From a virus: a stretch of DNA of 37,027 nt. Of this stretch, positions 4,237 to 35,234 are shown piece by piece (position 1 is the stretch's first letter; every line of letters starts with the position of its first letter). The stretch spans positions 1 to 37,027 of IMG/VR virus record IMGVR_UViG_3300032294_001488; one strand, 5' to 3'. The notes beneath the pieces were generated by a model. That model searched no databases, had not been told where the DNA came from, and saw only the letters and a program-made list of their open reading frames with translations. The position numbers were made by a program, and so were the translations under genes.

Positions 4237-4289
4237 GGCATTTCCTTCCTGTATGTATGATTCAATCGGCCACATGGTGAATGATGAAT

Positions 4290-4318
4290 GGTGGCCGGAT
4301 TTATCGGATCCGGCCACC
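4290..4318 (-). terminator. Hairpin between two leftward hypothetical genes
   Basis: A perfect 11-bp inverted repeat (GGTGGCCGGAT / ATCCGGCCACC) with a 7-base loop lies 12 bases after the stop of the 4331..4822 gene. No long T-run follows on the reverse strand, so it could be a weak terminator or an mRNA-stabilising stem. Confidence 0.5.
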
Positions 4319-4330
4319 GTTTCGGTTTGT

Positions 4331-4822
4331 TTATAATGGCTGGATCCAGTGTGACAAATCACCGATTACTTGGCCGATCACGGTTTCTTGAATCCGGCCG
4401 GCATCCGTGGTGTGCTTGAATGTGATGTGGATTTCGTTGCCGTTTAATTTGGCATCAACCAAATAAAACTTTTTGTATCGGCCATTGCTGGTGGCTTTCG
4501 TGATCATATCCCGGATTTGATACATATTGCCATAAACACGGCCGTTCTTCACTGCATGTGTGATTGATGCATTTTGGCCATTTACCACCACGGTGATTGA
4601 TTTCTTACCATCGGTGGTTTTTGGGGCTTCATATGGTGCATAAATTTCAACCATGAACTTCCAGCCATTTTCATCAATGATGGTGAGCATCCGGCCAACT
4701 TTGCCGATTGAAACATGTTTGATGCCGAATGCATCGGCCACATCTGATGGCTGATTCATTGCGGCGAATTCCATTTGGATTTGCTCACCGGTGGTGTGGT
4801 TTTTGATGTTTACCTTATCCAT
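4331..4822 (-). CDS. Hypothetical protein (driven by the duplicated promoter cassette)
   Basis: The 163-residue protein is predicted to be mostly beta-strand (alternating hydrophobic patches such as SITVVVNGQNASI and NEIHITFKH). No catalytic motif is recognised. The ATG at 4822 has GAGGGAACGGCA upstream and lies directly behind the promoter at 4860-4888. The same leader plus ATG is duplicated at positions 1-73, so a gene outside the window probably shares its regulation. Confidence 0.6.
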   Translation of the reverse strand: MDKVNIKNHTTGEQIQMEFAAMNQPSDVADAFGIKHVSIGKVGRMLTIIDENGWKFMVEIYAPYEAPKTTDGKKSITVVVNGQNASITHAVKNGRVYGNMYQIRDMITKATSNGRYKKFYLVDAKLNGNEIHITFKHTTDAGRIQETVIGQVIGDLSHWIQPL

Positions 4823-4859
4823 TGCCGTTCCCTCTCTGTATCAAACGATTACAATACAT

Positions 4860-4888
4860 ATTATATATCAAATATATCATGTTTGCAA
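4860..4888 (-). promoter_or_regulatory. Sigma70-type promoter, copy 2
   Basis: On the reverse strand TTGCAA (4883-4888) and TATAAT (4860-4865) are 17 bp apart, the ideal spacing. It drives the 4331..4822 gene. Copy 1 differs by one extra spacer base. Confidence 0.8.
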
Positions 4889-4939
4889 ACTGATTTCTGA
4901 TGAATATGAAGCAATATTCCGGCAATTTCAAATATGAAA

Positions 4940-4967
4940 CCGGCCGGATCCAATTGAATCCGGCCGG
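4940..4967 (-). terminator. Hairpin terminator, copy 2
   Basis: The arms CCGGCCGGATCC and GAATCCGGCCGG with a 4-base loop lie just after the stop of the 4986..5195 gene. The structure is near-identical to 101-128, with one weaker base pair. Confidence 0.55.
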
Positions 4968-4985
4968 CATCATGATGCATCGTTA

Positions 4986-5195
4986 TTATTTCAATTCATC
5001 GGCCATGGCTTTGAACAATCTCCGTTCGATTTTGGCCACCAACAATTTTTGTTCCACAATCAATTTGTCATATGCTCGAACGATGGCAAAATCATTCCGT
5101 GCTTCGGCTCGGATCCGGTTTGATTCAATCGTGTTCAATGTTTCCTTTGCGGCACGATATTCCATTTGTACCATTTTAACTTCGTTGCTCATCAT
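4986..5195 (-). CDS. Small helical coiled-coil protein
   Basis: The 69-residue, highly charged, apparently all-helical protein has heptad-like spacing (VKMVQMEYRAAKETLNTI, then IVEQKLLVAKIERRL). It is probably a small adaptor or DNA-metabolism helper; no family is recognised. AAGGAAACA precedes tandem ATGs. It overlaps the upstream membrane gene by 20 bases and ends the 5970-to-4986 unit, followed by a terminator. Confidence 0.55.
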   Translation of the reverse strand: MMSNEVKMVQMEYRAAKETLNTIESNRIRAEARNDFAIVRAYDKLIVEQKLLVAKIERRLFKAMADELK

Positions 5196-5376
5196 TGTTT
5201 CCTTGCTTGTTTATGGCTTCAATGGCATCGTTCCAACCTAACCAATATTGATCCATCATGCAACGATGATGCCAGTCAGCATACCGCTTTTTGGTTTCGT
5301 GGTGCCATGGTATGAGCACGGTACCAATTGAAGCCACCAACACCAACACGCCAAATAATAACATCCAAAAATCCAT
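5176..5376 (-). CDS. Small single-pass membrane protein
   Basis: The 66-residue protein has one N-terminal membrane helix (WMLLFGVLVLVASIGTVLI) and a hydrophilic Trp/His-rich tail. The ribosome site is AAAGGAGAA, and the start overlaps the upstream stop as TAATG. The arrangement of two consecutive small membrane proteins (with 5376..5480) suggests a joint membrane role, not identifiable. Confidence 0.6.
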   Translation of the reverse strand: MDFWMLLFGVLVLVASIGTVLIPWHHETKKRYADWHHRCMMDQYWLGWNDAIEAINKQGNNDEQRS

Positions 5377-5480
5377 TATATTTCTCCTTTGATTTTGGCC
5401 AAAATCAACGTGATAACGATGAACACACCGGTTGTGATCATGATGATTGAAAAATCACCGAATGCCGAATCCCAGTTCAT
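5376..5480 (-). CDS. Very small membrane peptide (34 aa)
   Basis: This short frame begins MNWDSAFGDF and continues with a hydrophobic helix (IIMITTGVFIVITLILA) and a basic end (KIKGEI). It is supported by an excellent ribosome site, AGGAGGAATGAA before the ATG at 5480, and by tight packing: the upstream gene stops at 5482 and its own TAA overlaps the next ATG as TAATG. It fills a gap of about 105 bases in an otherwise gapless operon. The function is unknown. Confidence 0.65.
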   Translation of the reverse strand: MNWDSAFGDFSIIMITTGVFIVITLILAKIKGEI

Positions 5481-5481
5481 T

Positions 5482-5676
5482 TCATTCCTCCTGTGCATTG
5501 CCATGTTCAGTGGCTCGAAATCTTCGGAGCCGATACAAATACCCTAATCGTTGCCAAACTTCCATTTCTTTTCGGAACACATCCAAACCGATTGAACGGA
5601 AATAATCCGGATTTTCACGGATCCATTTCAATTCTATTTCGGCTTGTTGTATTTCGATGTCTAATTCTGGCGGCAT
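5482..5676 (-). CDS. Small hypothetical protein
   Basis: The 64-residue, helical, Arg/Glu-rich protein (DIEIQQAEIELKWIRENPDY) ends just before the membrane peptide gene. It contains no recognised motif. It is the second gene of the 5970-to-4986 unit, tightly spaced behind 5677..5970. Confidence 0.5.
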   Translation of the reverse strand: MPPELDIEIQQAEIELKWIRENPDYFRSIGLDVFRKEMEVWQRLGYLYRLRRFRATEHGNAQEE

Positions 5677-5970
5677 TCATAATCCTTTGTACGAATCCTC
5701 AATGTTCCGAATGATGGCATATAAATTGATGATGGCCAGTGGCATTTTTTGTGGCTGAACAAATCGGCCAATTTGCATCCACGATCCATCAATGAATTTG
5801 TATGCACAATCATCATTGATGTTTGCCGATGGTGAAACCTGAACCACCACCGAAACACGAAGATTTTTGCTTCGAGCAATATCATTGATTGCCATGATGG
5901 CACGCTGTGTGGACTTGCCGGCATTATCAATGATTTCGTGTGTTCGGTGCAATTCGATCCGGTATGGCAT
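5677..5970 (-). CDS. Hypothetical protein, first gene of the divergent leftward unit
   Basis: This 97-residue protein of mixed alpha/beta pattern (YRIELHRTHEI, RVSVVVQVSP, PLAIINLYAI) has no recognised family. It is preceded by the strong ribosome site AAAGGAGGTG and by the promoter at 6000-6028. It is divergent from the replication operon, so it may be an early gene expressed alongside it. Confidence 0.6.
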   Translation of the reverse strand: MPYRIELHRTHEIIDNAGKSTQRAIMAINDIARSKNLRVSVVVQVSPSANINDDCAYKFIDGSWMQIGRFVQPQKMPLAIINLYAIIRNIEDSYKGL

Positions 5971-5999
5971 GATTCACCTCCTTTCTATACGATGATGGC

Positions 6000-6028
6000 A
6001 TGATAACACCATATTTATTTCTGGTCAA
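6000..6028 (-). promoter_or_regulatory. Leftward promoter in the divergent intergenic region
   Basis: On the reverse strand TTGACC (6023-6028) and TATCAT (6000-6005) are 17 bp apart, upstream of the AAAGGAGGTG site of the 5677..5970 gene. The intergenic region (5971-6098) must also hold the rightward replication promoter. The best forward candidate I see is TATGAT at 6062-6067 with only a poor -35 near 6038, so that one is weak. Confidence 0.65.
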
Positions 6029-6098
6029 CATCATATGTATACAATCATCGAATAAATGTGGTATGATGTATTTGGCGAATTCATAGAAAGGAACGTGT

Positions 6099-6218
6099 AT
6101 GATTCGTGATGTATTGATTGCATTTGGTGGATTTGTGGCCGGGATCGTGAGTGGTGCAGTTGTGTTAATGGTGGCCGTGGCCATTCGGAATGCCGGTGGT
6201 AGACGATGGCAAAAGTAG
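6099..6218 (+). CDS. Small membrane peptide (39 aa), first gene of rightward operon
   Basis: ATG at 6099 follows AGAAAGGAACGTGT. The peptide is one hydrophobic helix (FGGFVAGIVSGAVVLMVAVA) with a basic tail ending in RRWQK. Its stop (TAG 6216-6218) overlaps the start of the nuclease gene by 13 bases, so the two are probably coupled. The function is unknown; it may be membrane-tethered. The frame is too short for standard gene finding. Confidence 0.55.
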   Translation: MIRDVLIAFGGFVAGIVSGAVVLMVAVAIRNAGGRRWQK

Positions 6219-6709
6219 CGTGGAATGAATCGGCCATGCAACAACATTTGTTTGCATGGATTGACCAAACGGCACGAACGGCAAAATTTGCATGGATGAA
6301 GACCATATTTCATCCGGCAAATGGTGGCCACCGGCACATAGCAACGGCCGAACGGTTGAAGCGTGAAGGCGTAAGGCCCGGATGCCCTGATGTAATCGTT
6401 CCTATGCCGATTTTGAACGATGATGGCACCATCAAATATAATGGCATGGCCATTGAATTGAAGGTTTCGAGCAACAAACTCACACAACCACAAGCGGCAT
6501 TTTGCCAAATGTTGATCAAACAATCATGGTTTGTGATCGTGGTGCATGATTTTTTCGAAGTGGCGGCATGGCATATTTGCAAGCATTATGATGTTCCATA
6601 CACATTGAATGATTATTGCCGCAATCATGCCGATAAATGGTCTAGCGTGGTGAATGAATGGAGTGCATACGATTATGACAAAGGAACGAAAGGTGGATTT
6701 AATGGATAA
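6206..6709 (+). CDS. VRR-NUC domain nuclease
   Basis: This 167-residue single-domain nuclease of the PD-(D/E)XK superfamily, VRR-NUC type, is common in phage replication modules and related to the FAN1 nuclease domain. Visible signature: HPANGGHR, then AERLKREGVRPGCPDVIVP with the metal-binding Asp, then MAIELKV supplying the E-x-K pair, followed by LTQPQAAF as the QxxW-like helix. It probably cleaves branched or structured DNA during replication or recombination. It lies between the membrane peptide and an RHH protein in the rightward operon and overlaps both, consistent with coordinated early expression. Confidence 0.85.
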   Translation: MAKVAWNESAMQQHLFAWIDQTARTAKFAWMKTIFHPANGGHRHIATAERLKREGVRPGCPDVIVPMPILNDDGTIKYNGMAIELKVSSNKLTQPQAAFCQMLIKQSWFVIVVHDFFEVAAWHICKHYDVPYTLNDYCRNHADKWSSVVNEWSAYDYDKGTKGGFNG

Positions 6710-6905
6710 ACCACAACCGGTGGTGATCAACATCCGAATTGATGCCGAAACATTGAAACGGATTGATGAACAAACGGAAAAATTCCGTGAAATGATTCCA
6801 TACTTCAGCCGGAACCAAATGGTAAATTTGTTGCTCGTTAAGGGTCTTGATTTGCATGAACAAACCGGAGAAAGCAATCATGGGATATACACGGATCGGC
6901 AATAA
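6702..6905 (+). CDS. Ribbon-helix-helix DNA-binding protein
   Basis: The 67-residue protein has PVVINIRIDAETLKRIDEQTEKFREM, the strand-helix start of an RHH/CopG fold, followed by YFSRNQMVNLLLVKGLDL, the second helix. The ATG at 6702 is chosen for AAAGGTGG upstream and a natural 8-base overlap with the nuclease gene. Such proteins usually repress their own operon; this one sits directly before the replication initiator and could regulate it. Confidence 0.7.
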   Translation: MDKPQPVVINIRIDAETLKRIDEQTEKFREMIPYFSRNQMVNLLLVKGLDLHEQTGESNHGIYTDRQ

Positions 6906-7755
6906 ATTCATAGATGAAATTATGGCCACCGTTCCACCATCGGCCGTGCCGGTTTATTTGGTGATCGTTCGGCAAACGATAGGATGGAATCGGCCGGCCG
7001 ATGTTATATCCATCAGCCAATTTGTACGGCTGACTGGAATGGCACGGAACACGATCACCAAAGGCATTCAATCATTGATTGATGCCGGTGTGATTTCACG
7101 CCAAATCAAGACGGCAAACGGCAATGATTGCTATGAATATACCATTTCAAATTTTGAACATGGTAGTTCAAATTTTGAACATGGTGATTCAAATATTGAA
7201 CACGGTAGTGCAAATATTGAACACAATGATGCATCAAATATTGAACGTGGTGATTCAAATATTGAACGTGGTGGTGGTGCAAATTTTGAACCACCACCCC
7301 TTCAAAATTTGAACACACAAAATAAATATATAAAGAAAACAAAAAAGAAAACAAATAACGATACCACCACCGGTGCAAGCACCGATGGTGCTACCGTTCA
7401 ACCGATGGCACGTGATCCACGTTTGGATTCATGGCAAATCAAATGTTATCGTGAAATAGCACGATTAACACCACCATTTGCCGCAAGGGATGGTATTATC
7501 AATACGGTGACTGATGAAACCCGATGGCGTGAAGTGCTTCAATCATGGATCGCCAAAGGTTATCGGCCACAAAATATTGATGGCATGTTGAATTATTACA
7601 CACGATTTGCACCAGAGAAGGAAGTGCACCATGGAACACAATCACAACCAATTCAATCCGGATTCGGCACCACACACAAAGAACTCATCAACGGCCGATG
7701 GCAAGAAGTTTCCATTGACGAATATATCCGAAGACATGAAACGCTTCATGACTGA
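6880..7755 (+). CDS. Phage replication initiator (O-like, winged-helix N-terminus) with embedded iterons
   Basis: The N-terminal ~90 residues form a winged-helix typical of lambda O/DnaD-like replication proteins: VYLVIVRQTIGWNRPADVIS, then FVRLTGMARNTITKGIQSL. A low-complexity linker follows, made of repeated S-N-(F/I)-E-(H/R)-G-(D/S) heptads, then a Lys-rich tract. The C-terminal domain (about 190-290) includes RDGIINTVTDETRWREVLQSW and ends in HKELINGRWQEVSIDEYI. It would bind the iterons encoded in its own linker and recruit helicase through the DnaC-like partner downstream. The start at 6880 is supported by GGAGAAAGCAATC. The overlap with the loader gene is about 125 bases if that gene starts at 7631. 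Confidence 0.8.
   Translation: MGYTRIGNKFIDEIMATVPPSAVPVYLVIVRQTIGWNRPADVISISQFVRLTGMARNTITKGIQSLIDAGVISRQIKTANGNDCYEYTISNFEHGSSNFEHGDSNIEHGSANIEHNDASNIERGDSNIERGGGANFEPPPLQNLNTQNKYIKKTKKKTNNDTTTGASTDGATVQPMARDPRLDSWQIKCYREIARLTPPFAARDGIINTVTDETRWREVLQSWIAKGYRPQNIDGMLNYYTRFAPEKEVHHGTQSQPIQSGFGTTHKELINGRWQEVSIDEYIRRHETLHD
7146..7321 (+). repeat. Iteron array inside the initiator gene (candidate replication origin)
   Basis: Eight copies of a degenerate ~21-bp unit built on TTCAAATWTTGAACATGGTGA lie head to tail from 7146. Units 1-4 start at 7146, 7167, 7188 and 7209; the fifth carries three extra bases; the sixth starts at 7254 and the last two are more diverged. Each unit contains a near-palindromic TTCAAATWTTGAA core. 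A strongly A/T-rich, purine-asymmetric tract (about 7317-7358) follows directly, as expected for an unwinding element. This is the layout of the lambda origin inside gene O. Confidence 0.7.
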
Positions 7756-8566
7756 TTTGGATATGATCGGCATTACACATCCCCAAATGACAAACCGGGA
7801 GCGGTTTCAGGCCTCATCTGCGTACTGGCGTGAGCGGTATAATGCCATTCGTGCCGGCCGTGTTCAACGTGGTGTGATCCCACAACCTACCGGTGTTTGT
7901 GTTCAATGCAATGATGCCGGCTGGTATATGTACGGCCGGGAATTGACAAAATGTAATTGTGGCTATGCCGGCCAAAGCCCAGCACAAAAGCGGTTGAATC
8001 AAGAATTGCAAATTCTTTCGCATAAAACATTTGAAAATTTCGATTTGGAACGGCCATACACGGCCACCACCGATGCACCGGAATCATTTCAAAAGCAAAT
8101 GGTGAAGGTGGCATATCAAAAAGCCGTTTCATGGGCTAATCATCCGGCCGGATGGATTTACATTCACGGCACTCCGGGATGTGGTAAATCTCACATTGCG
8201 GCCGCAATAGCCAACACGTTATCATCGAACGGCCATGAGGTTATTTATCGTTCCATGCCGGCCATGGTGGATTATATGAGGGATGCCATGAAGAATGGCA
8301 CCATTGAAACGGTATACCAATTATTGACCAAAGCCGATGTGGTGATTTTCGATGATATAGGATCCGAATCCAAATCCGAATATGTTGATTCCGTGGTGTT
8401 TCGGTTGATCAATTGCCGTGTTGATTTGCCTACCGTGTTCACATCAAATCTTGATGTTCCTGAATTACGGTACAATCCACGGATCATTGATCGGTTGAAC
8501 AATTCCAAACGTGCTTGGATTGCTACCACATCATATCGTGAGATTTTGGCTCGAAATCAATCATGA
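7631..8566 (+). CDS. DnaC-like helicase loader (AAA+ ATPase)
   Basis: The 311-residue ATPase has Walker A GTPGCGKSH about residue 180 and Walker B VVIFDD about residue 240, then a sensor-like TVFTSNLDV and an arginine near the end, matching the DnaC/DnaI helicase-loader family. A Cys cluster CVQC...CNC at about 90-115 looks like a small zinc-binding motif. It would load the replicative helicase at the iteron origin together with the O-like protein. Start 7631 is chosen for the AGAAGGAAG site; ATGs at 7733 and 7748 would avoid most of the overlap but lack a ribosome site. Its stop overlaps the convergent tail gene by six bases. Confidence 0.85.
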   Translation: MEHNHNQFNPDSAPHTKNSSTADGKKFPLTNISEDMKRFMTDLDMIGITHPQMTNRERFQASSAYWRERYNAIRAGRVQRGVIPQPTGVCVQCNDAGWYMYGRELTKCNCGYAGQSPAQKRLNQELQILSHKTFENFDLERPYTATTDAPESFQKQMVKVAYQKAVSWANHPAGWIYIHGTPGCGKSHIAAAIANTLSSNGHEVIYRSMPAMVDYMRDAMKNGTIETVYQLLTKADVVIFDDIGSESKSEYVDSVVFRLINCRVDLPTVFTSNLDVPELRYNPRIIDRLNNSKRAWIATTSYREILARNQS

Positions 8567-8908
8567 TTCCGGTGCCGGTGAAATATCCGGAATGAATTTT
8601 TGTGGCTCTGGTGGATTTGGCCATGTGGTGGAATTCCATACCAAATTTGCCGGCAAATCCCGGAGATTTTGCCGGTATTGTTTCCACATGGCCAATTCTT
8701 GTGTAGTAATCGGTGCATCCGGCAACATAGTCCAGTCACATGCAAATAATAATGAATTCCGGTATTGCCGAACATTTTGCATGGCATCATCAATAGATGG
8801 TGATTCAATGATGATGGAATCCGGTGGAACATCGGTGAAATAATCACCATATTCATTCACATACAATGTTTGCAAATTGATGTGATCATAAATCAAATAA
8901 ATAATCAT
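8561..8908 (-). CDS. Phage tail assembly chaperone-like protein (APC type)
   Basis: The 115-residue protein has the pattern LLFACDWTMLPDAPITTQ, then WKQYRQNLRDLPANL and WPNPPEPQ, which is the core of the Phage_tail_APC-like family found at the end of tail-fibre operons. Such proteins are thought to assist fibre or tip-protein folding. It is the last gene of the leftward structural operon, starting in an ATGA overlap with the C1q-like tail protein that is its probable client. The ends of this gene and the helicase-loader gene overlap tail to tail. Confidence 0.7.
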   Translation of the reverse strand: MIIYLIYDHINLQTLYVNEYGDYFTDVPPDSIIIESPSIDDAMQNVRQYRNSLLFACDWTMLPDAPITTQELAMWKQYRQNLRDLPANLVWNSTTWPNPPEPQKFIPDISPAPES

Positions 8909-19588: not shown

Positions 19589-20199
19589 TTATTTTCCTTC
19601 CGGTATGCAAACAATTTTTGATCATGATCCGATGGTGGTATATCGTGATGTGCATCATCAACCGGCTTTCCCATAACTGGATGATTATGATACAAAATAG
19701 CCCATGGATGTTTGAAGAATTTTTTTTGTTCCACGGCACGGTAGCAAATTTCTGTATCACCGAAATTATGCCGGTACCATATCGGCCAGCCACCAAGGGA
19801 ACGAATGAATTGCATGGTAGTCATGAAATGACAAGCATGCAATAAATAATGACCATCACCATTAAAACCAACAACACCGGCAAATTGATCGGCGGCCAGT
19901 GATTCATATGCATGATGCCACCACCGATGCACCGGCAATACATCATTTGCGACATTTGCCACGATGGCAGAATCAGGCAAATCCTTCGTTGCTAAATCCA
20001 TGGCTTGCCAGTAAGACAACCGTTCATTCACGGCAATCATTCCACGTGCTCCGGCCGATGTGGCCGCCCTAACCACATCGGCCGATTCTTGGCCACTTAC
20101 GGCAATCACGTTGATTTTCATGCCGGCCGTTTGAATCAATCGTGGAATCAATTCAACGGTGGTGTTCAATCGTTTATGGCACGGTAGAACGGCATACAT
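19570..20199 (-). CDS. Glycosyltransferase-like protein (GT-A fold)
   Basis: The 209-residue protein has a truncated GT-A look: YAVLPCHKRLNTTVELIPRLI at the N-terminus (nucleotide-binding strand-helix), then ARGMIAVNERLSYWQAMDLA and VANVANDVLPVHRWWHHA. NDV sits where a DXD-like metal site belongs. FGDTEICYRAVEQ near residue 150 resembles the ED.xxxxR acceptor segment. ATG at 20199 overlaps the stop of the upstream GT2 gene as TGATG, so the two transferases are translated together. It may act on virion proteins or host surface sugars. The call as a transferase is good, the substrate unknown. Confidence 0.65.
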   Translation of the reverse strand: MYAVLPCHKRLNTTVELIPRLIQTAGMKINVIAVSGQESADVVRAATSAGARGMIAVNERLSYWQAMDLATKDLPDSAIVANVANDVLPVHRWWHHAYESLAADQFAGVVGFNGDGHYLLHACHFMTTMQFIRSLGGWPIWYRHNFGDTEICYRAVEQKKFFKHPWAILYHNHPVMGKPVDDAHHDIPPSDHDQKLFAYRKENKWTGFL

Positions 20200-21287
20200 C
20201 AATTTGCTTTCTTTGGCCGGCCGGCACGGCTTACACGTTCGGTTTGTTCAATCGGTGATGTTTCAACGGTTTCCACAGCCACATCATTTGATGGCTCAAT
20301 GATTTCCGCAATTTCGGCCGGTGCCGGTGCCGTTTCATATTTGGTTTCAGGCATCACGATCCGAAATGGCAATTGCAACATATATGCCACATCCTCCGGT
20401 GGTACGGTGATATAACGAGCCGTGGAACTGCCACCGGCACGGTATACACGTTGACTTACCGGATGTTTGATGATGAATGAACCTTTTTGTGCACCGATAT
20501 ATTCGAGTGTTTGCATACCATCCATTGTTGGAACCTCCCCTAATGTAGCCACTACGGCCTTAATTGAATTCTTTGGCACCGATCCACAACAGCCCATTGT
20601 AATCCCTCCATGTTCATTCAAATATGGTTTGATAACACGATCCATCAATTCTTGACCACCGGCCACATCTGCATGATGCACTATGGAATGTTCCACACGA
20701 TACACAAATATAGGCCCACGGTAGTAATGGCCACAATGGCCGGCCATGGCCATTCGAAGATAAAAAGTCCAATCTTCCCAGCCCGGTGCTTCCTCATCAA
20801 AACCACCAACATCAATTGCTTTTTGCCGTGGAATCAATGCCGTGATAGGATGCAAATTGAATTTTGCATATTTCAATTGATCATAATCCGGTGGCCGTTG
20901 ATGTCTGGTGCCGGCATAATGGCTACTGTATGTATACGCTTTATCATGTGATGCATGGCCACGGAGTAATAATTCTATGGCCGGCCTCAACAAATAATCA
21001 TCGGCATCCAGAAACACCACAAATTCACCGGTGGCATGGTGCAAACCGGTATTTCGTGCCACTGCCGGCCGATTGCCTACCGGATTCGATTTATTGAAAT
21101 TTGGGCTTTTGATTACAATCACTCGTGGATCGGCATATGTTGGCAATTCGTTAGGGCCATCATTCACCACAATGATTTCAATGTTTTTGTATGTTTGCCA
21201 TAGACACGAAGCGACGGCCACACCAACATATTGATGATGTGAGCCGCCGCACGGTATAACAATTGTGACTAATGGATTCATAGACAT
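20199..21287 (-). CDS. Family 2 glycosyltransferase with phage-type C-terminal extension
   Basis: The 362-residue protein has a clear GT2 domain (about 1-215): VTIVIPCGGSHHQYVGVAVAS, IEIIVVNDGP, RNTGLHHATGEFVVFLDADDY with the DXD-like metal site, and GFDEEAPGWEDWTFYLRMAM with the catalytic ED. A second part (about 225-300) contains TLEYIGAQKGSFIIKHPVSQ and ARYITVPPEDVAYML, resembling a small beta domain of phage head-region proteins; the tail is acidic and ends RAGRPKKAN. It lies directly behind the capsid gene, so glycosylation of virion proteins is plausible. Start 21287 lies one base after the hairpin at 21289-21311, whose loop holds its ribosome site. Confidence 0.8.
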   Translation of the reverse strand: MSMNPLVTIVIPCGGSHHQYVGVAVASCLWQTYKNIEIIVVNDGPNELPTYADPRVIVIKSPNFNKSNPVGNRPAVARNTGLHHATGEFVVFLDADDYLLRPAIELLLRGHASHDKAYTYSSHYAGTRHQRPPDYDQLKYAKFNLHPITALIPRQKAIDVGGFDEEAPGWEDWTFYLRMAMAGHCGHYYRGPIFVYRVEHSIVHHADVAGGQELMDRVIKPYLNEHGGITMGCCGSVPKNSIKAVVATLGEVPTMDGMQTLEYIGAQKGSFIIKHPVSQRVYRAGGSSTARYITVPPEDVAYMLQLPFRIVMPETKYETAPAPAEIAEIIEPSNDVAVETVETSPIEQTERVSRAGRPKKAN

Positions 21288-21288
21288 T

Positions 21289-21311
21289 GTGCCGGATCGC
21301 TCCTCCGGCAC
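21289..21311 (-). promoter_or_regulatory. Hairpin sequestering the GT2 ribosome site
   Basis: A perfect 7-bp inverted repeat (GTGCCGG / CCGGCAC) with a 9-base loop holds AGGAG in the loop on the transcribed strand; the ATG at 21287 starts one base beyond the stem. It could limit translation of the glycosyltransferase relative to the abundant capsid protein just upstream, or act as a weak terminator. Confidence 0.5.
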
Positions 21312-26253: not shown

Positions 26254-26838
26254 TTAATTCCCAACTTGCACCTCACCATTTCTAATTCGGAACGGTGCCC
26301 AGCGACGTGCTCGCACTATGCATGTTTGGCATGAATCCGTTGCATGTCTAATCCAATAGCAGTCATAATCACCACGATCCCGGTCTATCACTTGTATATC
26401 CCATTTGCATTTGCAATTTCCTCGGCATTGCGTTCCTTGTGCCGGCATGGCCGGCAATGGCAGAAATTCGGTTTTTCCTGCCCAATACGGAACCTTAATG
26501 CCGTTTGCATATGATACGGCACGAGCCGCCTCACGCCGCCAAAATTTGCGCTCATTCATGACTTGAATATAAAAGCCATCAAAATAGGCCATTTGTGTTT
26601 TTAACACATACCGGAGAATATCCCTCAATTGTGGTGTTAATTCACTCACACCGGATCCAAGCAAACCGGATGCCGTATGATACCGAATAATTTCACGCTT
26701 AGCGTCTTCATACCATTTGGTGACTGCATCCGGATCAATCACGTTTCCATCATTATCCACACCATCACGGATCAATTTTGCCGAACGGTTTGCCATATAT
26801 GTAGCAAACCGAGCAATCAATTTTTCTAATTCGTTCAT
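26254..26838 (-). CDS. Minor head protein (SPP1 gp7 / Mu F-like) with Cys-rich C-terminus
   Basis: The 194-residue protein follows the portal, as minor head proteins do. The N-terminal ~110 residues are helical; the C-terminal end has AQGTQCRGNCKCKWDIQV and later DCYWIRHATDSCQTC followed by RARRWAPF. The CxxxCxC...C...CxxC arrangement resembles the metal-binding tail of phage head-morphogenesis proteins. It overlaps the portal stop as AAATGA. It is shorter than the usual 250-400 residue family members. Confidence 0.65.
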   Translation of the reverse strand: MNELEKLIARFATYMANRSAKLIRDGVDNDGNVIDPDAVTKWYEDAKREIIRYHTASGLLGSGVSELTPQLRDILRYVLKTQMAYFDGFYIQVMNERKFWRREAARAVSYANGIKVPYWAGKTEFLPLPAMPAQGTQCRGNCKCKWDIQVIDRDRGDYDCYWIRHATDSCQTCIVRARRWAPFRIRNGEVQVGN

Positions 26839-28424
26839 TTGGTCAACCTATCCAGCAATCGAATTGCACTAGCAAATTCTTCATCAATCAATGCATCAAT
26901 CACCATGGTATTTGGCTCAATGCCGGCCGGTGGTGTTCCATTATCAAACAGTGGTGCATCAATCATGTTGGCTTCAATGATTGTGGCTTGCTTCAATTTG
27001 ATGATGGCTTTTTCGGTTTCTTCCACGGTTGATGTGATTTGGCCATCGGCCGGAGTTTGGCCATTTGCCTCAATTTGAGCACGTTCAGCAATTTGGTTTG
27101 CTTGTGTGGCACTTTCGATATTTTCCGAATCTGTGACCACACCACCGGCCGTGGAATCAGTGGCCAGAAATTCACGTGGCAAATATCCTTCATCCACCAA
27201 CACATTCAATCCTTGCACCGATGAAATAACCTGTGATTCAATTAACGGTTTCAATGCCGAGGCCCACGCTTGCAACGTTTCAGCACGATCACGTTTATCT
27301 TTTTGATCCGATGGTGCCAAATAAAATGTGACTGCATCCGGCATCACATCATGTGTAATGGCCAAAGCAAATTGCTTTCGAAACGATGCCAAACCACGGC
27401 CTTCAGCGGCTTCCTGTAGCACCACACTTTGTGTTCCGGTGCCGAATCCTTGACCACTCAACGGTTGAATTTCACCAACAAACATTCCTAATGCATTTGC
27501 ATAACGCAAATATGCATCTCCACGTTCACTATCTGCGTTAAAACCATCCGGAATTTCTGCTAATGGTATCGTGGCAATACTCGGTGTTTCATTGCGGATC
27601 ATCGGAATGATGGTTGAGCCACGATATACCACAAATCCTTTTTGGTCTTGCATGGCCGCCGAAGAATTCAACGCTTGCCCTAATTGATCCGATGAAATCC
27701 CATTCACAATATGAATGGCTAAATTTCTGGCACCGGATATTTTTTCTCTCACAAATGTTTCAATGGCCGTTAATTTCAAAATGGTATTGAATGCCCTACG
27801 TGCCGCCGAATATCCCATACCATAATGTTGAGAACGTGCCGATGGAGTATCAGCAAACATCAACACGTCTTCGGCTCTCATCACGTGATGAAATCCTTTT
27901 AAATCAATATAAACTAATGGATATTTGGGATCACCGGTTCTATAACATCGGAGTGAATCCAAATGCATCAATCCGATAACCTTGCTACCGGCCGCCGATG
28001 ATGAACGGACTATTTCAATAAATGCACCATTATCCGTGGTGAGATAATCACGTACAATTTTTGACAAACCGGCCGTATAATTGCCATCAAAATTCAACAT
28101 CAATTCTTGTGCTTGTTTGATTCGTCGTGATGATTCGGTAGTGTCCTCAATTTCGAATCCCAAAGCCGTTTGTTTACTGATGGCAGTTGAAACGGCCGAA
28201 GCCCACATATCTTCAATCATCACGGATTCGGATAATATAGCATCGGCCGCTTTTGATCCATATGGTGGCAAACCATTTGCACCGGCCACACCCTGCAATA
28301 ATCCACCGGATCCGAGCCATTGTCCCCACGATGAAGGCCCCAAAACCACGGTGAAACCACCATCCGATTTCACGGCTTGATTATCATCCTTAGTCACTGA
28401 TCGTTTCATCACATCATCAGTCAT
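26835..28424 (-). CDS. Portal protein
   Basis: The 529-residue protein lies between TerL and the minor head protein. It has a Gly-rich start, then a central MHLDSLRCYRTGDPKYPLVYID, AEDVLMFADTPSARSQHYGMGYSAARRAF, and a helical crown (FRKQFALAITHDVMPDAVTFYL) with an Asn/Gln/Glu-rich C-terminus. This domain order and the conserved GxGYSAxRRA region fit HK97/SPP1-like portals. It forms the dodecameric ring through which TerL pumps DNA. AGAGGAAAATATT precedes the ATG. Confidence 0.85.
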   Translation of the reverse strand: MTDDVMKRSVTKDDNQAVKSDGGFTVVLGPSSWGQWLGSGGLLQGVAGANGLPPYGSKAADAILSESVMIEDMWASAVSTAISKQTALGFEIEDTTESSRRIKQAQELMLNFDGNYTAGLSKIVRDYLTTDNGAFIEIVRSSSAAGSKVIGLMHLDSLRCYRTGDPKYPLVYIDLKGFHHVMRAEDVLMFADTPSARSQHYGMGYSAARRAFNTILKLTAIETFVREKISGARNLAIHIVNGISSDQLGQALNSSAAMQDQKGFVVYRGSTIIPMIRNETPSIATIPLAEIPDGFNADSERGDAYLRYANALGMFVGEIQPLSGQGFGTGTQSVVLQEAAEGRGLASFRKQFALAITHDVMPDAVTFYLAPSDQKDKRDRAETLQAWASALKPLIESQVISSVQGLNVLVDEGYLPREFLATDSTAGGVVTDSENIESATQANQIAERAQIEANGQTPADGQITSTVEETEKAIIKLKQATIIEANMIDAPLFDNGTPPAGIEPNTMVIDALIDEEFASAIRLLDRLTK

Positions 28425-28491: not shown

Positions 28492-29832
28492 TCAATATAA
28501 ATTCAATCCTAATGATGCATGGCAAGCCATGCTTAATGCTACCACTGCATCAATTTTTTTACTACTATCACGCTTCACGATTCGCAGTTTGTGGCCGGAT
28601 TCATCCACTTTGGCGTTTGCATTCATAATGTGATTTCTCAATACATCATGATCACCATTGTGATACAAACGTCTTGAAATAATCAATTGCCGGAGTGCGG
28701 CATCTGCTTCCAATCTTCGTGATTGCTGATTGAATGGCTCACACCAAACCTTATCGGCCAAACGTTGAGCCAAATAATGCGCTTGATATGGATCATATGC
28801 AATTTGCACCACATTGTAATCATTCAAAATTTTTCGGATTTCGGATTCAATTTGGCCATAATCCAAAGGTGTTCCGTTTGGCTCCCATACTCGGCAAATC
28901 CGAACGGCTAATGTTTGATCCGATGATGCACCATATAACGATACGCCTACCAAAGCAAATGTATCTCCATTGATTGCGGCATCCATGCCTAACACAATCG
29001 GTTGATGTTTATTCACCGGTGGCAATTCAGTCAAACAATTATCCCACAATGAAATTGAACCGAGGAATGATTCTCCTTCATCATCATCAACCCATAGGCC
29101 CAAACGAAGCCGAGCATACCGTGTGCCGGTAAGCGAATCCAGTGATTCCAATTCCTTCCGGCCTTGCTCAGTCCAATTTGTTCCATCATGCAATACCGGA
29201 TTGTCTTCATGTCTGGTTTCATATAATTTCATTCGGCCGGCTTTGGCACGTTCCAAAATCCAGTGATTTGGTGTGGCCGGATTGCAATCACCACCAAGCA
29301 TCGGATATGGCACCACGGCACCACGGCCATTTGTTCGAGTGATCAATGTTTCCCATGCATCCCGGGATAATTCCTCCGCTTGTGATACATAGGCCATATC
29401 AAATTCACCACCAAGAACCTTGCTTGAATTATCCATGCCACCAATTCGAACGATTGAACCATTTGGATAAATCCACATTCTCGGACTAGTGCCGCCGATT
29501 TCCTGTGGTTGAACCGTGCCGAAATTGATGATTTTTTGCCAAGTCATAAGTGTGGTGGATGCTAAATCTTTGGCCACTTGCCGAATGATGATGCAATGTG
29601 CATTTGCATATGTTGAACACACCATGTGTAAGCGATACAATCCAGCAAATGTCTTACCGGTGCCGGCTGGACCTGCTAGCAACCATTCCGGATCGGTGGT
29701 GGTTTGGATTTGTGCTGGTGCATTGCGGAATGATGGAACCGGTTTGTTCCGTCTTCTGCGTTCTAATTCCAAACGTGCCAACAATGCCAATTTATCGGCC
29801 GAGTTGTGCAATGAAGTTTGTGAGTTCATCAT
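28492..29832 (-). CDS. terL: Terminase large subunit (TerL)
   Basis: The 446-residue ATPase/nuclease drives DNA packaging. Walker A is AGPAGTGKT (53-61), Walker B is FDMAYVSQAEEL with the catalytic Glu pair, and motif III-like LGGDCNPATPNHW follows. The C-terminal nuclease domain begins VLGMDAAINGDTFALVGV (first catalytic Asp), continues VVQIAYDPYQ (second) and has KKIDAVVALSMAC (third Asp). It overlaps the small subunit gene by 41 bases. Confidence 0.93.
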   Translation of the reverse strand: MMNSQTSLHNSADKLALLARLELERRRRNKPVPSFRNAPAQIQTTTDPEWLLAGPAGTGKTFAGLYRLHMVCSTYANAHCIIIRQVAKDLASTTLMTWQKIINFGTVQPQEIGGTSPRMWIYPNGSIVRIGGMDNSSKVLGGEFDMAYVSQAEELSRDAWETLITRTNGRGAVVPYPMLGGDCNPATPNHWILERAKAGRMKLYETRHEDNPVLHDGTNWTEQGRKELESLDSLTGTRYARLRLGLWVDDDEGESFLGSISLWDNCLTELPPVNKHQPIVLGMDAAINGDTFALVGVSLYGASSDQTLAVRICRVWEPNGTPLDYGQIESEIRKILNDYNVVQIAYDPYQAHYLAQRLADKVWCEPFNQQSRRLEADAALRQLIISRRLYHNGDHDVLRNHIMNANAKVDESGHKLRIVKRDSSKKIDAVVALSMACHASLGLNLY

Positions 29833-30217
29833 CTGATAATTCCATGATTTGTTCAGGTGTCATATTGACGCTGATTTGTTTGGTGGTTTGTGTGGCATCC
29901 AGTCCTAACAATTTGGCACGCCGATCCATGATTTTAATCATGGCATCAATTGCTTTGTATTCTCCGGAACGTGCTTTGCTCCAAATTCCTAATACCATAT
30001 CATCCAAACGGCTCAATTCGAGCACCACCATGGATCGGTGATGTTCCTTTGCTTCCTCATGATACGCTTTGATTTGCGTTTGAATATATTTGTGCACCGT
30101 GGCCGAACTGATGCCTAACTGTCTGCCGATTTTGTTGTAACTCACACCGGCTTTCCGCAATTCAAACGCTTTGGCCGATAATTCGGCACGTTCTTCATTT
30201 GTTTTTGGCTTTCCCAT
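29792..30217 (-). CDS. terS: Terminase small subunit (TerS)
   Basis: The 141-residue DNA-binding subunit selects phage DNA for packaging. The N-terminal HTH is clear: AFELRKAGVSYNKIGRQLG then ISSATVHKYIQTQI. A helical oligomerisation segment (HHRSMVVLELSRLDDMVLGIW) and a C-terminal TPEQIMELSDDELTNFI motif, common in TerS, follow. Start at 30217 has AGGAGATGAACAA; the longer frame to 30265 is rejected. The 134 bases before it (30218-30351) hold no gene; a small stem TAGGC/GCCTA is visible there and a pac-type site may lie nearby, but I see no distinctive signal. Confidence 0.8.
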   Translation of the reverse strand: MGKPKTNEERAELSAKAFELRKAGVSYNKIGRQLGISSATVHKYIQTQIKAYHEEAKEHHRSMVVLELSRLDDMVLGIWSKARSGEYKAIDAMIKIMDRRAKLLGLDATQTTKQISVNMTPEQIMELSDDELTNFIAQLGR

Positions 30218-30351
30218 TTGTTCATCTCCTATGTGTTCAACCACATAAATCAATGATATAAGCAACGAAGCACATAGGCTAGATGCCTACATGCCTCATT
30301 GTTGCCACGTGGTGAATTCAATTGATTTGATGGCAATGATTCATGTGGCCA

Positions 30352-30948
30352 TTAAACAGCAATCATTCCTCGTTTATCATCCCACGAACGAATCAAATAC
30401 ACGATCGGCACGGCAAGCAAAGTCATCCACAATTTCCCTACAATTTGGCCTTCGGCATAAATCAACGGCAAACCGGCCAAACCGAGGAAAATGAATGAAT
30501 CAATGATGAGGCCAACAATGTTTGATGCAATCACGGCAATAAACAAATTCCGTTTCTGCAATGGTGTGTATACAAACAAATCGAGTGATTCGGCCACGAA
30601 AAATGCCACACCACTTGCCAAAGCCAAACCGGGATCAAGAAACGCACTCAATCCGGCACCGATGGCCACGGCCGCCCAAGAATACCAAAAGCCCAAACGA
30701 CGTTGCACCAAATCACGAAGCGTTAGGGCCACACCAGCCCAAAGCACTCCACTCGGTACCATGCCATCACCGATGCCGAATGATGGCCACATCGGAATCA
30801 AACACGTGGGATTCGTTGGATCATCACCAACACAAATTTGTCCTACGTTTTTAATGAAATAATTTGCTAACACAATCGTTGCCGCAAATCCAATAAAAAA
30901 TAATGTACCTTCGAAAATTCGTTCCTGCTTCATGTTGGATCCATTCAT
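30352..30948 (-). CDS. VUT/YhhQ-family transporter (queuosine-precursor type)
   Basis: The 198-residue membrane protein has about six hydrophobic segments and the VUT-family core: PSGVLWAGVALTLRDLVQRR, FFVAESLDLFVYTPLQKRN and ASNIVGLIIDSFIFLGLAG. The family includes YhhQ, which imports preQ0/preQ1. The ATG at 30948 has AAGGAGCAAATAAC upstream; longer frame rejected. It is the last gene of the ParB-DpdA-QueC unit. It would raise the pool of 7-deazaguanine precursor in the infected cell, feeding DNA modification. Substrate is inferred from family and context. Confidence 0.8.
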   Translation of the reverse strand: MNGSNMKQERIFEGTLFFIGFAATIVLANYFIKNVGQICVGDDPTNPTCLIPMWPSFGIGDGMVPSGVLWAGVALTLRDLVQRRLGFWYSWAAVAIGAGLSAFLDPGLALASGVAFFVAESLDLFVYTPLQKRNLFIAVIASNIVGLIIDSFIFLGLAGLPLIYAEGQIVGKLWMTLLAVPIVYLIRSWDDKRGMIAV

Positions 30949-30949
30949 G

Positions 30950-31354
30950 TTATTTGCTCCTTCGCATTTGGTCATTAAACCATGTGTAATGCCTAAACAT
31001 TGATAAACCAATTAACGGTGTTTGTGCTGATGGCCATACACGTTTCACCATAAGTGAATATGATTTGCCGCCTAATGCAATCACCGATTCATTCAAAATG
31101 CCGAATCGAATTGCTTGTTGCTTAATTGTGTATGCTCCGATGGATCCCACATCACCCATTTTCAAGTCATACGGCTCAATCACGGTGTCTAATGTCATTA
31201 GCCCATATTTGGCACTGAGGATATAAATATTCTCACGTGGTGCCATAAATTGTGCATATTTCATCCCGGCCTTATGATACCGGCCAACATACATTTGTTC
31301 GGCCGTGGTAGCGTGTGATGCTTTTAAATGGCCACATGGAACAATAACGATCAT
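30950..31354 (-). CDS. DUF6884-like protein in 7-deazaguanine cluster
   Basis: The 134-residue protein starts IVIVPCGHLKASHATTAEQMY and contains ENIYILSAKYGLMTLDTVIEPYDLKM, the SAKYGL...I.PYD pattern of the DUF6884 / YaaA-related family. The conserved Cys in PCG and the Lys-Tyr-Gly segment are likely functional. It overlaps the queC stop as ATGA and is followed closely by the transporter gene. Its role in modification is unknown; a step acting on the 7-deazaguanine base or on modified DNA is possible. Confidence 0.6.
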   Translation of the reverse strand: MIVIVPCGHLKASHATTAEQMYVGRYHKAGMKYAQFMAPRENIYILSAKYGLMTLDTVIEPYDLKMGDVGSIGAYTIKQQAIRFGILNESVIALGGKSYSLMVKRVWPSAQTPLIGLSMFRHYTWFNDQMRRSK

Positions 31355-32049
31355 GAAACACCATCACTTTCATAATCCGTGGGATCCGGAATGTCTGCTA
31401 ATACAAATGCCTCCTTTCGTTCGGTGCATGTTCCACACGTGCCACAATGACGCTTACCGCCCTTATAACAACTCCACGTTTCGTGAAATGGAACGCCGAG
31501 CACATGGCCGGTAGCCACAATATCATGTTTCTTTTTGGCAATGAATGGTGTGTATAAATGCAAATCACGCTTTGCAAATCCATCGGTGGCATATCGTTGC
31601 ATCAAATCGAAAGCATTCACAAATTCCGGCCGGCAGTCAGGGTATATATAATGATCACCACCATGAACACCGGTGGCCACCACATTTGCTTTTCGTGCCA
31701 CGGCCACACCATATGCAATGGTGAGCATGATTGCATTCCGATTTGGCACCACGGTTGATTTCATGGATTCCGCTTCATAATGGCCATCTGGTACCGGTAT
31801 CGAATGATCGGTAAGTGATGAGCCGGTAAGCAATGCACCGATGGAAGTCACATCAACCAAATCAAATGTGGCATTAAGCCGGCTTGCCGTGAATTCGGCG
31901 AATTGCAATTCTCGTGAATGTCGCTGGCCATAATCAAACGCCAAAATGTGCAAATCGTAATTTGCATCCTTCAAATAATATGCGAGTGTCACGCTATCCA
32001 AACCACCGGAAACAATGGCCACCGCTAATTTTTTGGCTTTGGTTCTCAT
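31351..32049 (-). CDS. queC: 7-cyano-7-deazaguanine synthase (QueC)
   Basis: This 232-residue enzyme converts CDG to preQ0 using ammonia and ATP. The PP-loop SGGLDS (14-19) is intact, followed by HILAFDYGQRHSREL and TVVPNRNAIMLTIAYGVAVA; HGGDHYIYPDCRPEF contains the substrate site. The zinc site is complete: ETWSCYKGGKRHCGTCGTC then ERKEAF. AGGAGCAGAGA precedes the ATG. It lies between the DpdA-like gene and the DUF6884-like gene. No queD, queE or folE is visible in the window, so CDG must come from the host or from genes elsewhere in the phage. Confidence 0.93.
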   Translation of the reverse strand: MRTKAKKLAVAIVSGGLDSVTLAYYLKDANYDLHILAFDYGQRHSRELQFAEFTASRLNATFDLVDVTSIGALLTGSSLTDHSIPVPDGHYEAESMKSTVVPNRNAIMLTIAYGVAVARKANVVATGVHGGDHYIYPDCRPEFVNAFDLMQRYATDGFAKRDLHLYTPFIAKKKHDIVATGHVLGVPFHETWSCYKGGKRHCGTCGTCTERKEAFVLADIPDPTDYESDGVS

Positions 32050-32918
32050 TCTCTGCTCCTGTTGAATTGATAACCTATGCGAATTTCTTTGATGTTCGAA
32101 CCGGCTAAATATATATGTAGTCCGGCCTCATCATCATTCGTGTTTCCTATCATTGATATACTACCATGATATTGCTTAAACCATTGCTCCGCTTTGTGAT
32201 GTGCTTTGATGGCCAAAGCAATAGACATTTCACGTTTCAATTTCCCATTCGTGTTATTGTCTGAAAATTCCTCCGGATCAAACCCTAATGCTCGGATTTG
32301 TTTAGCATGTTTGTACAATGCTTGATAATTGTTCATACGAATTTGTTTGATATGGCCGGCATGGTCTAAAATAGGCATACTGCCGTAGCGAATTCCCATA
32401 GCCCACGTGGTTGAATCAACGCTATACCATGGTAAATTCCTCAACAATTCAAATGATGTGCATCCAAATCCGTGATACACAGTTCGGCCCTGTGCCATTT
32501 TAAAAGCACGGATCAACCATGGCATCAACAATTTTGGTTGTGTGGCATACGGCACCATTCCACCGAGTGCAATATATTTGTATCGTTCGATGTAATGTTC
32601 TAAATATTGCCATGGCTCACCAACATGGAACACCGGCAATGGATCAAGGCCAAAATCATGCAAACGTGATTGATTCACTTGCGTTTGTTCGGCACTACCG
32701 ATCACATCCAAATTACTATATGTAGTAATCAAATGTTTCCATCGTTTCACCCATTCGGCATATTCTCGGATATTGATAGTAACGCCTTGTGTGAATGCCG
32801 AATAAGCACCGGAATCAATAAATATTTGTGGTCTTACATCATCAAAATTTTCATGGATTATTTTGTCTAAATCCTGATTTTTGAAATAATGATAAGACAA
32901 CAATAATTTCAAATTCAT
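32046..32918 (-). CDS. dpdA: DpdA-like DNA guanine transglycosylase
   Basis: The 290-residue protein has a TGT-like TIM-barrel pattern. IDSGAYSAFTQG places Asp35 where the first catalytic Asp belongs; PVFHVGE (95-101) and YIALGGMV (115-122) match the substrate loop (GG of TGT), and HGFGCTS then WYSVDSTTW put Asp168 as the likely nucleophile. The CxCxxC zinc site of tRNA enzymes is absent, as in phage DpdA proteins. It is expected to exchange guanine in DNA for preQ0 or a derivative. It overlaps the ParB-like gene stop at its start and is followed by queC. Assignment to the phage DpdA group is strong; the final base is unknown. Confidence 0.85.
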   Translation of the reverse strand: MNLKLLLSYHYFKNQDLDKIIHENFDDVRPQIFIDSGAYSAFTQGVTINIREYAEWVKRWKHLITTYSNLDVIGSAEQTQVNQSRLHDFGLDPLPVFHVGEPWQYLEHYIERYKYIALGGMVPYATQPKLLMPWLIRAFKMAQGRTVYHGFGCTSFELLRNLPWYSVDSTTWAMGIRYGSMPILDHAGHIKQIRMNNYQALYKHAKQIRALGFDPEEFSDNNTNGKLKREMSIALAIKAHHKAEQWFKQYHGSISMIGNTNDDEAGLHIYLAGSNIKEIRIGYQFNRSRE

Positions 32919-33523
32919 TTTGGATCCAATTCATCAATTAAATCCAACAATGCCGAAATTTTCTCACTATCGGTTTGGCCATCAATATTTTTCATCATGG
33001 CATTCCATCGGTCTAAAATATTCGGTGCCAATTTGATTTTGATTTCCGGCCAAAATGCCGCCTCATCATAATCACCATATTCTTCATCTAATTCATCTAA
33101 ATCCGGTGTTCCATCGGTGTTATATAATCCGGCTTTTTTGGCCAAATCATCCAACATTTGAGCAACGGCCGGTGAATCTGTTGAAATTTCATTTAACAAT
33201 GAATCCAACATTTTTGCATCGGTTTCGGCTAATGATGTAATCGGATCGAACGTTGCTAATAACACATCGGCTTCATCATCCGAAACATCTAAAATAACGG
33301 CCGGGAATGGTACGCCAACAGTCATTCGCTCATGGCCATCAATCAATTTATATCCATGTGGTGTTTCATAAGCAATCACCGGTGCCGCAATGCCGATTTG
33401 TGACAAAACACCTCGCAATGCATCACGTTGCGCTTGTGGATGAACACGCCAATTTTTTGAATTCGGCATCACATCGGATGGATTCAAAATTTTCATTTCC
33501 TTGATTCGGTTTCGGATATTCAT
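32915..33523 (-). CDS. ParB-like nuclease-domain protein
   Basis: The 202-residue protein has a ParB/Srx fold at the N-terminus (20-95): NSKNWRVHPQAQRDALRGVL, IAAPVIAYETPHG and YKLIDGHERMTVG with the DGHxR catalytic/ATP motif. It is followed by DDEADVLLATFDPITSLAETD, the linker usually preceding a DNA methyltransferase, but the rest (acidic, DLDELDEEYGDYDE) has no methylase. It starts with AGGAGCATGGC and overlaps the DpdA-like gene. It may act as an ATP-dependent partner or regulator of modification, similar in place to ParB-like proteins of dpd clusters. Confidence 0.75.
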   Translation of the reverse strand: MNIRNRIKEMKILNPSDVMPNSKNWRVHPQAQRDALRGVLSQIGIAAPVIAYETPHGYKLIDGHERMTVGVPFPAVILDVSDDEADVLLATFDPITSLAETDAKMLDSLLNEISTDSPAVAQMLDDLAKKAGLYNTDGTPDLDELDEEYGDYDEAAFWPEIKIKLAPNILDRWNAMMKNIDGQTDSEKISALLDLIDELDPK

Positions 33524-34673: not shown

Positions 34674-35234
34674 TTATTCTATCATATATTTGCCGTTATT
34701 TTGTATATACCACGTGGCATATACATCGGATTTATCTTGATTCGTGGTGATGTAAGACCATTTCACATGCCATCCCAAATCATCCAATTTGGCGAGCCAG
34801 TCAATCAATTGTTTCGGATGAACGTTTGCATAATATTCACCGGGCTTCAAATCTGGTGCACCATCAGCAGAATGACTTCTCCGATTAGGCCCAGCACACG
34901 TTATCACCATCATGCATCCGGATGGATCGGCATAATCCAACATGGCATCTAATAACGGTGCCGGTGGTGTGTGCTCCAAAACTTCCGTGCTCACAATCAA
35001 TTTATATATTGATAATTCGGCTTGTTTGGCGGCCTCACGATCACGAATATCTACCACTTCATCCACACAAGGGCCGGCCACAATATCCACACCGGTATAT
35101 GGAACGTATTGAGCAAATGCCGCTCGTGCCGATCCGTTGATGTTAATACTACCAACTTCAAGTGTAGGCCCACTCAACCATTGCCGGTATGCTTCGGCCG
35201 TTCGTTTCAAAAATGCCATGGCTCCATCATGCAT
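34674..35234 (-). CDS. Class I SAM-dependent methyltransferase
   Basis: The 186-residue Rossmann protein has LEVGSININGSARAAF as motif I, YTGVDIVAGPCVDEVVDI as motif II, and KLIVSTEVLEHTPPAPLLDAML (motif IV/V with EVLEH). CMMVITCAGPNRRSHSADG follows. This small-molecule-type methyltransferase pattern occurs in many phages; the target is unknown. Given the nearby 7-deazaguanine cluster it could modify the inserted base, but sugar or lysis-related targets are equally open. GAAGGAATGAATC precedes the ATG. Confidence 0.7.
   Translation of the reverse strand: MHDGAMAFLKRTAEAYRQWLSGPTLEVGSININGSARAAFAQYVPYTGVDIVAGPCVDEVVDIRDREAAKQAELSIYKLIVSTEVLEHTPPAPLLDAMLDYADPSGCMMVITCAGPNRRSHSADGAPDLKPGEYYANVHPKQLIDWLAKLDDLGWHVKWSYITTNQDKSDVYATWYIQNNGKYMIE

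Follow-up and report, generated by a model that had tools for sequence, protein, structure and literature searches.

How could a phage place a 7-deazaguanine in its DNA, and which base would result, if it encodes QueC while a profile search of its 37 kb finds nothing for FolE, QueD or QueE? This question is raised by the IMG/VR virus record IMGVR_UViG_3300032294_001488, of which the whole 37,027-base sequence (GC content 44%) was analysed and is here called the window. The locus of interest is a cassette on the minus strand, running from position 33523 down to 30352, with genes for a ParB-like protein, a DpdA-like protein, QueC, a DUF6884 protein and a VUT-family transporter. The original prediction, made from the sequence alone, had seen in it a phage cassette for 7-deazaguanine modification of DNA. 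This is now supported by the tRNA-guanine transglycosylase (TGT) fold of the DpdA-like protein and by 7ui4, a bacterial DNA-guanine transglycosylase, as the only significant solved relative of its profile. We consider it probable that a tailed phage here carries a salvage-type operon for modifying its DNA with a 7-deazaguanine. Directly shown were the order of the genes, their families, the protein folds, the conserved residues and the recurrence of the modules in relatives; what each enzyme does, which base results, which substrate is imported and the protective role are inferred.

A probable DNA-guanine transglycosylase with a ParB-like partner

The DpdA-like protein belongs to phrog_887 (queuine tRNA-ribosyltransferase, E = 1e-52) and also matches phrog_7068. 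No Pfam family matched it, and single-sequence searches of PDB sequences and of viral contigs were empty as well; its viral relatives were recovered only with DpdA alignments as query. A TGT-like barrel had been named as the check on this protein, and the AlphaFold (AF2) model is confident (predicted local distance difference test (pLDDT) 94.5, predicted template modelling score 0.91), with all 21 of 21 Foldseek matches at E ≤ 0.001, including the top PDB folds, being TGTs. A profile of 75 viral homologues gave one significant PDB match, 7ui4 (E = 0.0016), in whose alignment D168 stands opposite SIDST and D35, in a weaker segment, opposite DCGAF. Both aspartates, which the original prediction had picked out, are among the nine residues invariant across the 75 homologues, joined by D71 as a third invariant Asp. 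From the motifs and general knowledge, we take D35 (DSG) to be the acid/base Asp of TGTs and D168 (SVDS) the nucleophile.

The zinc site of the tRNA enzyme is indeed absent, the phage protein having one Cys in 290 residues, unlike its DpdA counterpart in a bacterial dpd island (L183; L numbers denote the compared loci), which retains a CGCGIC cluster. Two curated profiles that describe the longer bacterial DpdA stayed below cut-off (NF041059, 13 bits versus 200, E = 0.034; PADLOC DpdA, E = 0.013), and the phage DpdA profile matches, at E = 1e-7 (among the open reading frames (ORFs) of the locus), the DpdA encoded in a complete dpd island from a bacterium. That the cassette modifies DNA by transglycosylation is, in our judgement, highly probable.

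For comparison, 104 viral loci with DpdA relatives were assembled, and adding loci from genomes and more viral ones brought the set to 167. A ParB-like gene immediately upstream of dpdA is a conserved partner, lying at most 300 bp from dpdA in 58 of the 87 viral loci with enough flank; in the phages Typha and Finch, ParB also stands next to dpdA, and the proteins resemble that of the window including the C-terminal part. Matches of the window protein itself were weaker (phrog_498, E = 1e-9; phrog_620, E = 3e-5), with no Pfam ParB match. Its assignment as DpdB was rejected, as no PADLOC DpdB match was obtained and hhalign of a four-sequence ParB alignment against authentic DpdB gave a probability of 0.6%. 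Its role may be similar to that of DpdB.

The DUF6884 protein and the final base

The original prediction had named preQ0 (7-cyano-7-deazaguanine) or a derivative as the modification, which can be sharpened to a putative 2'-deoxy-7-amido-7-deazaguanosine (dADG), the DUF6884 protein being related to the dADG-making DpdC. DUF6884 is the Pfam domain of dpdC (PMC11888242), and DpdC (DUF328) hydrolyses dPreQ0 to dADG (PMC12839542). The window protein matches PF21818 (E = 1e-19) and the PADLOC DpdC profile (E = 6e-5; residues 11-67 against profile positions 48-102 of 312). As reference served a complete actinobacterial dpd island, QueC-QueE-QueD-FolE-DpdC-DpdB-DpdA, whose DpdC and DpdB match the PADLOC profiles at E = 9e-65 and 7e-141. 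The phage DUF6884 profile matches this DpdC at E = 3.5e-6 (among the ORFs of that locus) with an hhalign probability of 67%, and nine of the 11 residues that are constant across 15 phage DUF6884 proteins recur in it (C7, K11, A18, Y22, G24, S47, A48, G51 and Y62). Judged by these matches, the DUF6884 protein is related to bacterial DpdC but shorter, a kinship that makes dADG the best-supported product, and we lean slightly towards dADG as the final base. Attack of a Cys on a nitrile occurs in nitrilases and QueF and, by analogy, would be a natural mechanism for the DUF6884 protein.

In 13 other viral loci the DUF6884 gene adjoins dpdA or que genes, usually by overlap (L018, L023, L054, L075, L083, L095, L099, L105, L107, L110, L115, L154 and L157). 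Of these, only L115 was fetched with DUF6884 as query, the other 12 being independent of it, and with QueC as query more contigs with the DUF6884 cassette came to light (L187, L226 and L227). By tblastn, DUF6884 was matched in 170 of 50,697 phage records, a figure that compares only roughly with the locus counts, as the search sensitivities differ. Its distribution takes about three changes on the DpdA tree, which probably reflects repeated gain or loss of the gene.

The alternative that survives best leaves the operon as it is and ends it at dPreQ0, with the DUF6884 protein as a YaaA-like accessory (e.g. DNA-binding or stress-related) instead of a nitrile hydratase. It would agree with the AF2 model of this protein (pLDDT 96.3), whose only good solved fold match is E. 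coli YaaA/DUF328 (probability 0.98) and not DpdC, with the wide occurrence of DUF6884 outside que cassettes, and with the dPreQ0 carried by phages Rosebush and CAjan (PMC6884629). Yet DUF6884 recurrently adjoins dpdA or queC with 4-base overlaps in viral cassettes, and C7, invariant in the 15 phage proteins, is found in authentic DpdC, so that we consider dPreQ0 as the end point unlikely, albeit worth keeping in view.

Several findings weigh against a salvage route that ends in dADG. The contig has no terminal repeats, so the absent que genes may lie beyond it. The full-length DpdC architecture was not found, the phage DUF6884 protein having about 134 residues versus about 310 in bacterial DpdC. 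Free-standing DUF6884 genes are frequent in mycobacteriophages (148 of the 170 phage matches) and also occur on Rhodococcus and Streptomyces plasmids, the family not being confined to the 7-deazaguanine pathway. Separately, gp64 of Streptomyces phage Ponzi (L010:5356-6843) holds a DUF6884 domain inside a 495-residue protein with no que genes nearby, which implies that the family also has roles beyond these cassettes.

QueC and the target of the cassette

As DpdA is related to TGT, and QueC and VUT also belong to the tRNA-queuosine genes, the cassette might act on tRNA, as part of host queuosine metabolism, rather than on DNA. The missing TGT zinc site and the profile matches to 7ui4 and bacterial DpdA make this very unlikely; moreover, neither QueA nor QueG appeared in the window genes covered by the Pfam scan, and in CAjan, Rosebush and others it is DNA that proteins of the DpdA class modify (PMC6884629).

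QueC was predicted to be complete, with the SGGLDS loop and a full Cys zinc site. It matches PF06508 (E = 7e-62), exceeds the cut-off of the NCBIfam equivalog TIGR00364 (189 bits versus 150.3), and carries every element of the canonical signature, namely SGGxDS, YxQxHxxE, VPxRN, YPDC and the Cys zinc motif (PMC13329287), in the form of SGGLDS, YGQRHSRE, VPNRN, YPDC, SCY and C-x7-C-x2-C-x2-C, with a zinc spacing of C-x7-C compared to C-x8-C in the published motif. This intact signature is evidence against the protein-modifying QatC branch and, together with the full length of 232 residues, against the truncated Cap9 branch. A phage-borne anti-phage defence in which a QueC-like enzyme deazaguanylates proteins, as in type IV CBASS (Cap9) or QatABCD, was accordingly rejected on gene content and QueC motifs and is the least probable explanation, for although a QueC-like protein is also paired with a TGT-like one in type IV CBASS (general knowledge) and a weak QatC profile match was obtained (E = 1e-3), the full canonical QueC signature is retained, the neighbouring genes searched contain no CD-NTase, QatA, QatB or QatD, and the best PADLOC match is QueC, not QatC.

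Precursor supply

QueC, named earlier as the maker of preQ0, is insufficient for this on its own. The window has it without FolE, QueD and QueE and does not contain the complete phage preQ0 pathway (group 2, Hutinet 2019), and the precursor must therefore be host-made or imported. The transporter matches PF02592 (Vut_1; E = 5e-10, 40.4 bits versus a gathering score of 27.2) and falls short of the TIGR00697 equivalog cut-off. A VUT gene is present in 10 of the 34 related loci that lack QueD/QueE and in 4 of the 133 that have them (Fisher p = 2e-5, or p = 0.001 when each flank of a locus had to span at least 3 kb), statistics that include near-identical contigs and take no account of shared ancestry. 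It is this association with the loss of QueD/QueE that leads us to read the cassette as salvage-type. The pairing of canonical QueC with VUT in the absence of QueD/QueE is found again in L012, L065, L193, L215 and L230, the last three of which were found with a QueC query and have no recognisable DpdA.

Since QueC would be superfluous if VUT delivered preQ0, the simplest explanation is that the host supplies 7-carboxy-7-deazaguanine (CDG) or that VUT imports it; the gene content thus suggests that CDG rather than preQ0 is the precursor obtained. Within the VUT/YhhQ family, E. coli YhhQ takes preQ0 and preQ1 and a Chlamydia protein takes queuine (PMC11130926), which indicates that specificity shifts within the family. 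As a tentative proposal, possible rather than probable, VUT beside a canonical QueC (with no QueD, QueE or FolE) would itself import CDG, and the phage would complete preQ0, insert it and hydrate it to dADG by a single-domain DpdC of 134 residues. If true, three enzymes and a transporter would make up a route to DNA with a fully tailored 7-deazaguanine, and CDG, possibly a substrate new to the YhhQ transporters, would represent a VUT/YhhQ specificity not reported in the literature compared.

Proposed pathway and its meaning

In the salvage-type operon that we favour, a 7-deazaguanine precursor would enter via VUT import and/or as host-made CDG, and QueC would convert CDG into preQ0. The DpdA-like transglycosylase, helped by the ParB-like protein, would swap some of the guanine in DNA for preQ0, and the DpdC-like DUF6884 protein would hydrate the nitrile of dPreQ0 to give dADG. 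The altered guanines would then hide the phage DNA from host nucleases, in line with other DpdA phages, in which 7-deazaguanines protect DNA from restriction (PMC6884629). In phage DNA, dADG replaces 100% of G in Campylobacter phages CP220 and CPt10 and about 0.13% in MED16 (PMC8306585). The 7-deazaguanine strategy is hence already known, and what is new is this gene combination. With it, the phage could carry dADG while devoting very little of its genome to the task; the proposal also offers a function for the DUF6884 genes of many phage que cassettes and allows a direct test of whether the precursor comes from the host or the environment.

Cassette architecture and neighbouring genes

As predicted, the five leftward genes are consecutive and overlap or nearly touch (Table 1): all five ORFs are present, separated by 4-bp overlaps (ParB/DpdA, 32915-32918; DpdA/QueC, 32046-32049; QueC/DUF6884, 31351-31354) or a 1-base gap. 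The VUT start was corrected to the ATG at 30948, which has AAGGAG (Shine-Dalgarno) just upstream and lies one base past the DUF6884 stop, giving 198 residues versus 219 in the mechanical ORF. The cassette stands directly before the terminase genes, the helix-turn-helix (HTH) gene of phrog_645 and then the large terminase following in the same direction; a phrog_645 gene also comes next after the cassette in Typha and in many viral loci.

Table 1 Coordinates of the cassette genes and adjoining terminase genes in the window.
Feature	Position	Strand	Basis
ParB-like gene, 202 aa	32915..33523	-	phrog_498/620; resembles ParB genes adjoining dpdA
DpdA-like DNA-guanine transglycosylase, 290 aa	32046..32918	-	phrog_887, AF2 model, 7ui4 profile match
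QueC, 7-cyano-7-deazaguanine synthase, 232 aa	31351..32049	-	PF06508, TIGR00364
DUF6884/DpdC-like protein, 134 aa, predicted to tailor dPreQ0 to dADG	30950..31354	-	PF21818, PADLOC DpdC
VUT/YhhQ (COG1738) transporter, 198 aa, predicted 7-deazaguanine-precursor uptake	30352..30948	-	PF02592
HTH protein, phrog_645, probable small terminase (neighbour outside cassette)	29792..30265	-	
Large terminase (neighbour)	28492..29832	-	TerL_nuclease PF20441, E = 8e-17

TerL matches were weak and mostly actinobacteriophage, while a TerL single-protein search of viral contigs gave no relatives and a search of the structural protein (26835-28424) against phages no match. Elsewhere, the window encodes a ThyX-type thymidylate synthase (144-860; PF02511, E = 2e-35), a family 2 glycosyltransferase within the structural-gene region (20199-21311; PF00535, E = 5e-18) and, a short way upstream of an HTH gene preceding the cassette, an S-adenosylmethionine-dependent methyltransferase-like gene (34674-35234; phrog_32762, E = 3e-13). 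The cassette of L015 likewise includes a methyltransferase (8016-8831).

Modularity of phage DpdA cassettes

Among the approximately 170 loci compared, ParB, DpdA, QueC, DUF6884 and VUT without QueD/QueE occur together in the window only. Closest in content are L012, L013, L014 and L015, which have ParB, DpdA and VUT in one cassette, QueC being present in some and absent from others. In terms of gene content, the comparison shows phage DpdA cassettes to be modular, with ParB and DpdA as the common core and interchangeable genes for supply (FolE-QueD-QueE or VUT) and tailoring (none, DUF6884, QueF-like or GAT-QueC). FolE assignments in L015, L037 and L041 were discarded, a competing QueF profile having reassigned all three, with Pfam QueF-like matches in two of them, below cut-off.

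L037 (IMGVR_UViG_3300033141_001736) resembles the window in its order of ParB, DpdA, a QueC-type gene, tailoring genes, VUT and phrog_645, but has a divergent QueC, and a QueF-like gene and a myo-inositol-phosphate synthase where the window has DUF6884. The QueF-like gene at this position makes the DUF6884 slot look like a tailoring slot, supporting a base-modifying role. The myo-inositol-1-phosphate synthase of L037 (8599-9681; PF01658, E = 4e-34) lies inside the DpdA cassette with the QueF-like and VUT genes, and the base is possibly an inositol-decorated 7-deazaguanine. Beside its ParB-DpdA pair, L041 (IMGVR_UViG_3300009514_000133; 3313-8365) has a GAT-QueC fusion, an oxidoreductase-like gene, two glycosyltransferase-like genes, a QueF-like gene and VUT, which suggests a sugar-bearing 7-deazaguanine; the glycosyltransferase-like genes are mutually related, and the one scanned shows no Pfam match.

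Two further arrangements were observed. L193, L215 and L230 have ParB-VUT-QueF-QueC cassettes beside terminase genes, and L215 and L230 also carry a gene sharing the motif TCPxAGxCAQxCYARNG; an insertion enzyme of another kind may replace DpdA in the three loci. Rhizobium phage RHph_N3_2 (L009:5351-6555) encodes a DpdA-like protein of 226 residues, annotated as hypothetical, whose gene overlaps a VUT gene with no que genes nearby.

Comparison with known systems

Bacterial dpd islands, in which DpdA-B-C are accompanied by restriction genes, share with the window a DpdA homologue, a DpdC-related protein, a ParB-type partner and QueC nearby. However, the C-terminal Cys cluster is absent from the phage DpdA, as is the C-terminal portion of DpdC from the phage DUF6884 protein; the window's ParB-like protein is not recognised as DpdB, and a restriction operon is missing. 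Rosebush and CAjan (Hutinet 2019, PMC6884629) are, in turn, tailed phages with a DpdA-family transglycosylase and QueC, some such phages also having a YhhQ-family transporter; they encode FolE, QueD, QueE and QueC, whereas the window has QueC alone of these, plus the DpdC-like protein and the transporter. Of the viral loci, L012 (IMGVR_UViG_3300005672_000068) has the same order of ParB, DpdA, QueC, VUT and terminase with a DpdA 49% identical, and no QueD, QueE or FolE within its 6.4-kb fragment, but is without DUF6884. Finally, Mycobacterium phage Typha (MK494099, L002) shares the ParB-like gene, a DpdA 41% identical and the position of the cassette directly before phrog_645 and the terminase; its cassette contains QueD, QueE and FolE in place of QueC, DUF6884 and VUT, and thus holds the complementary half of the pathway.

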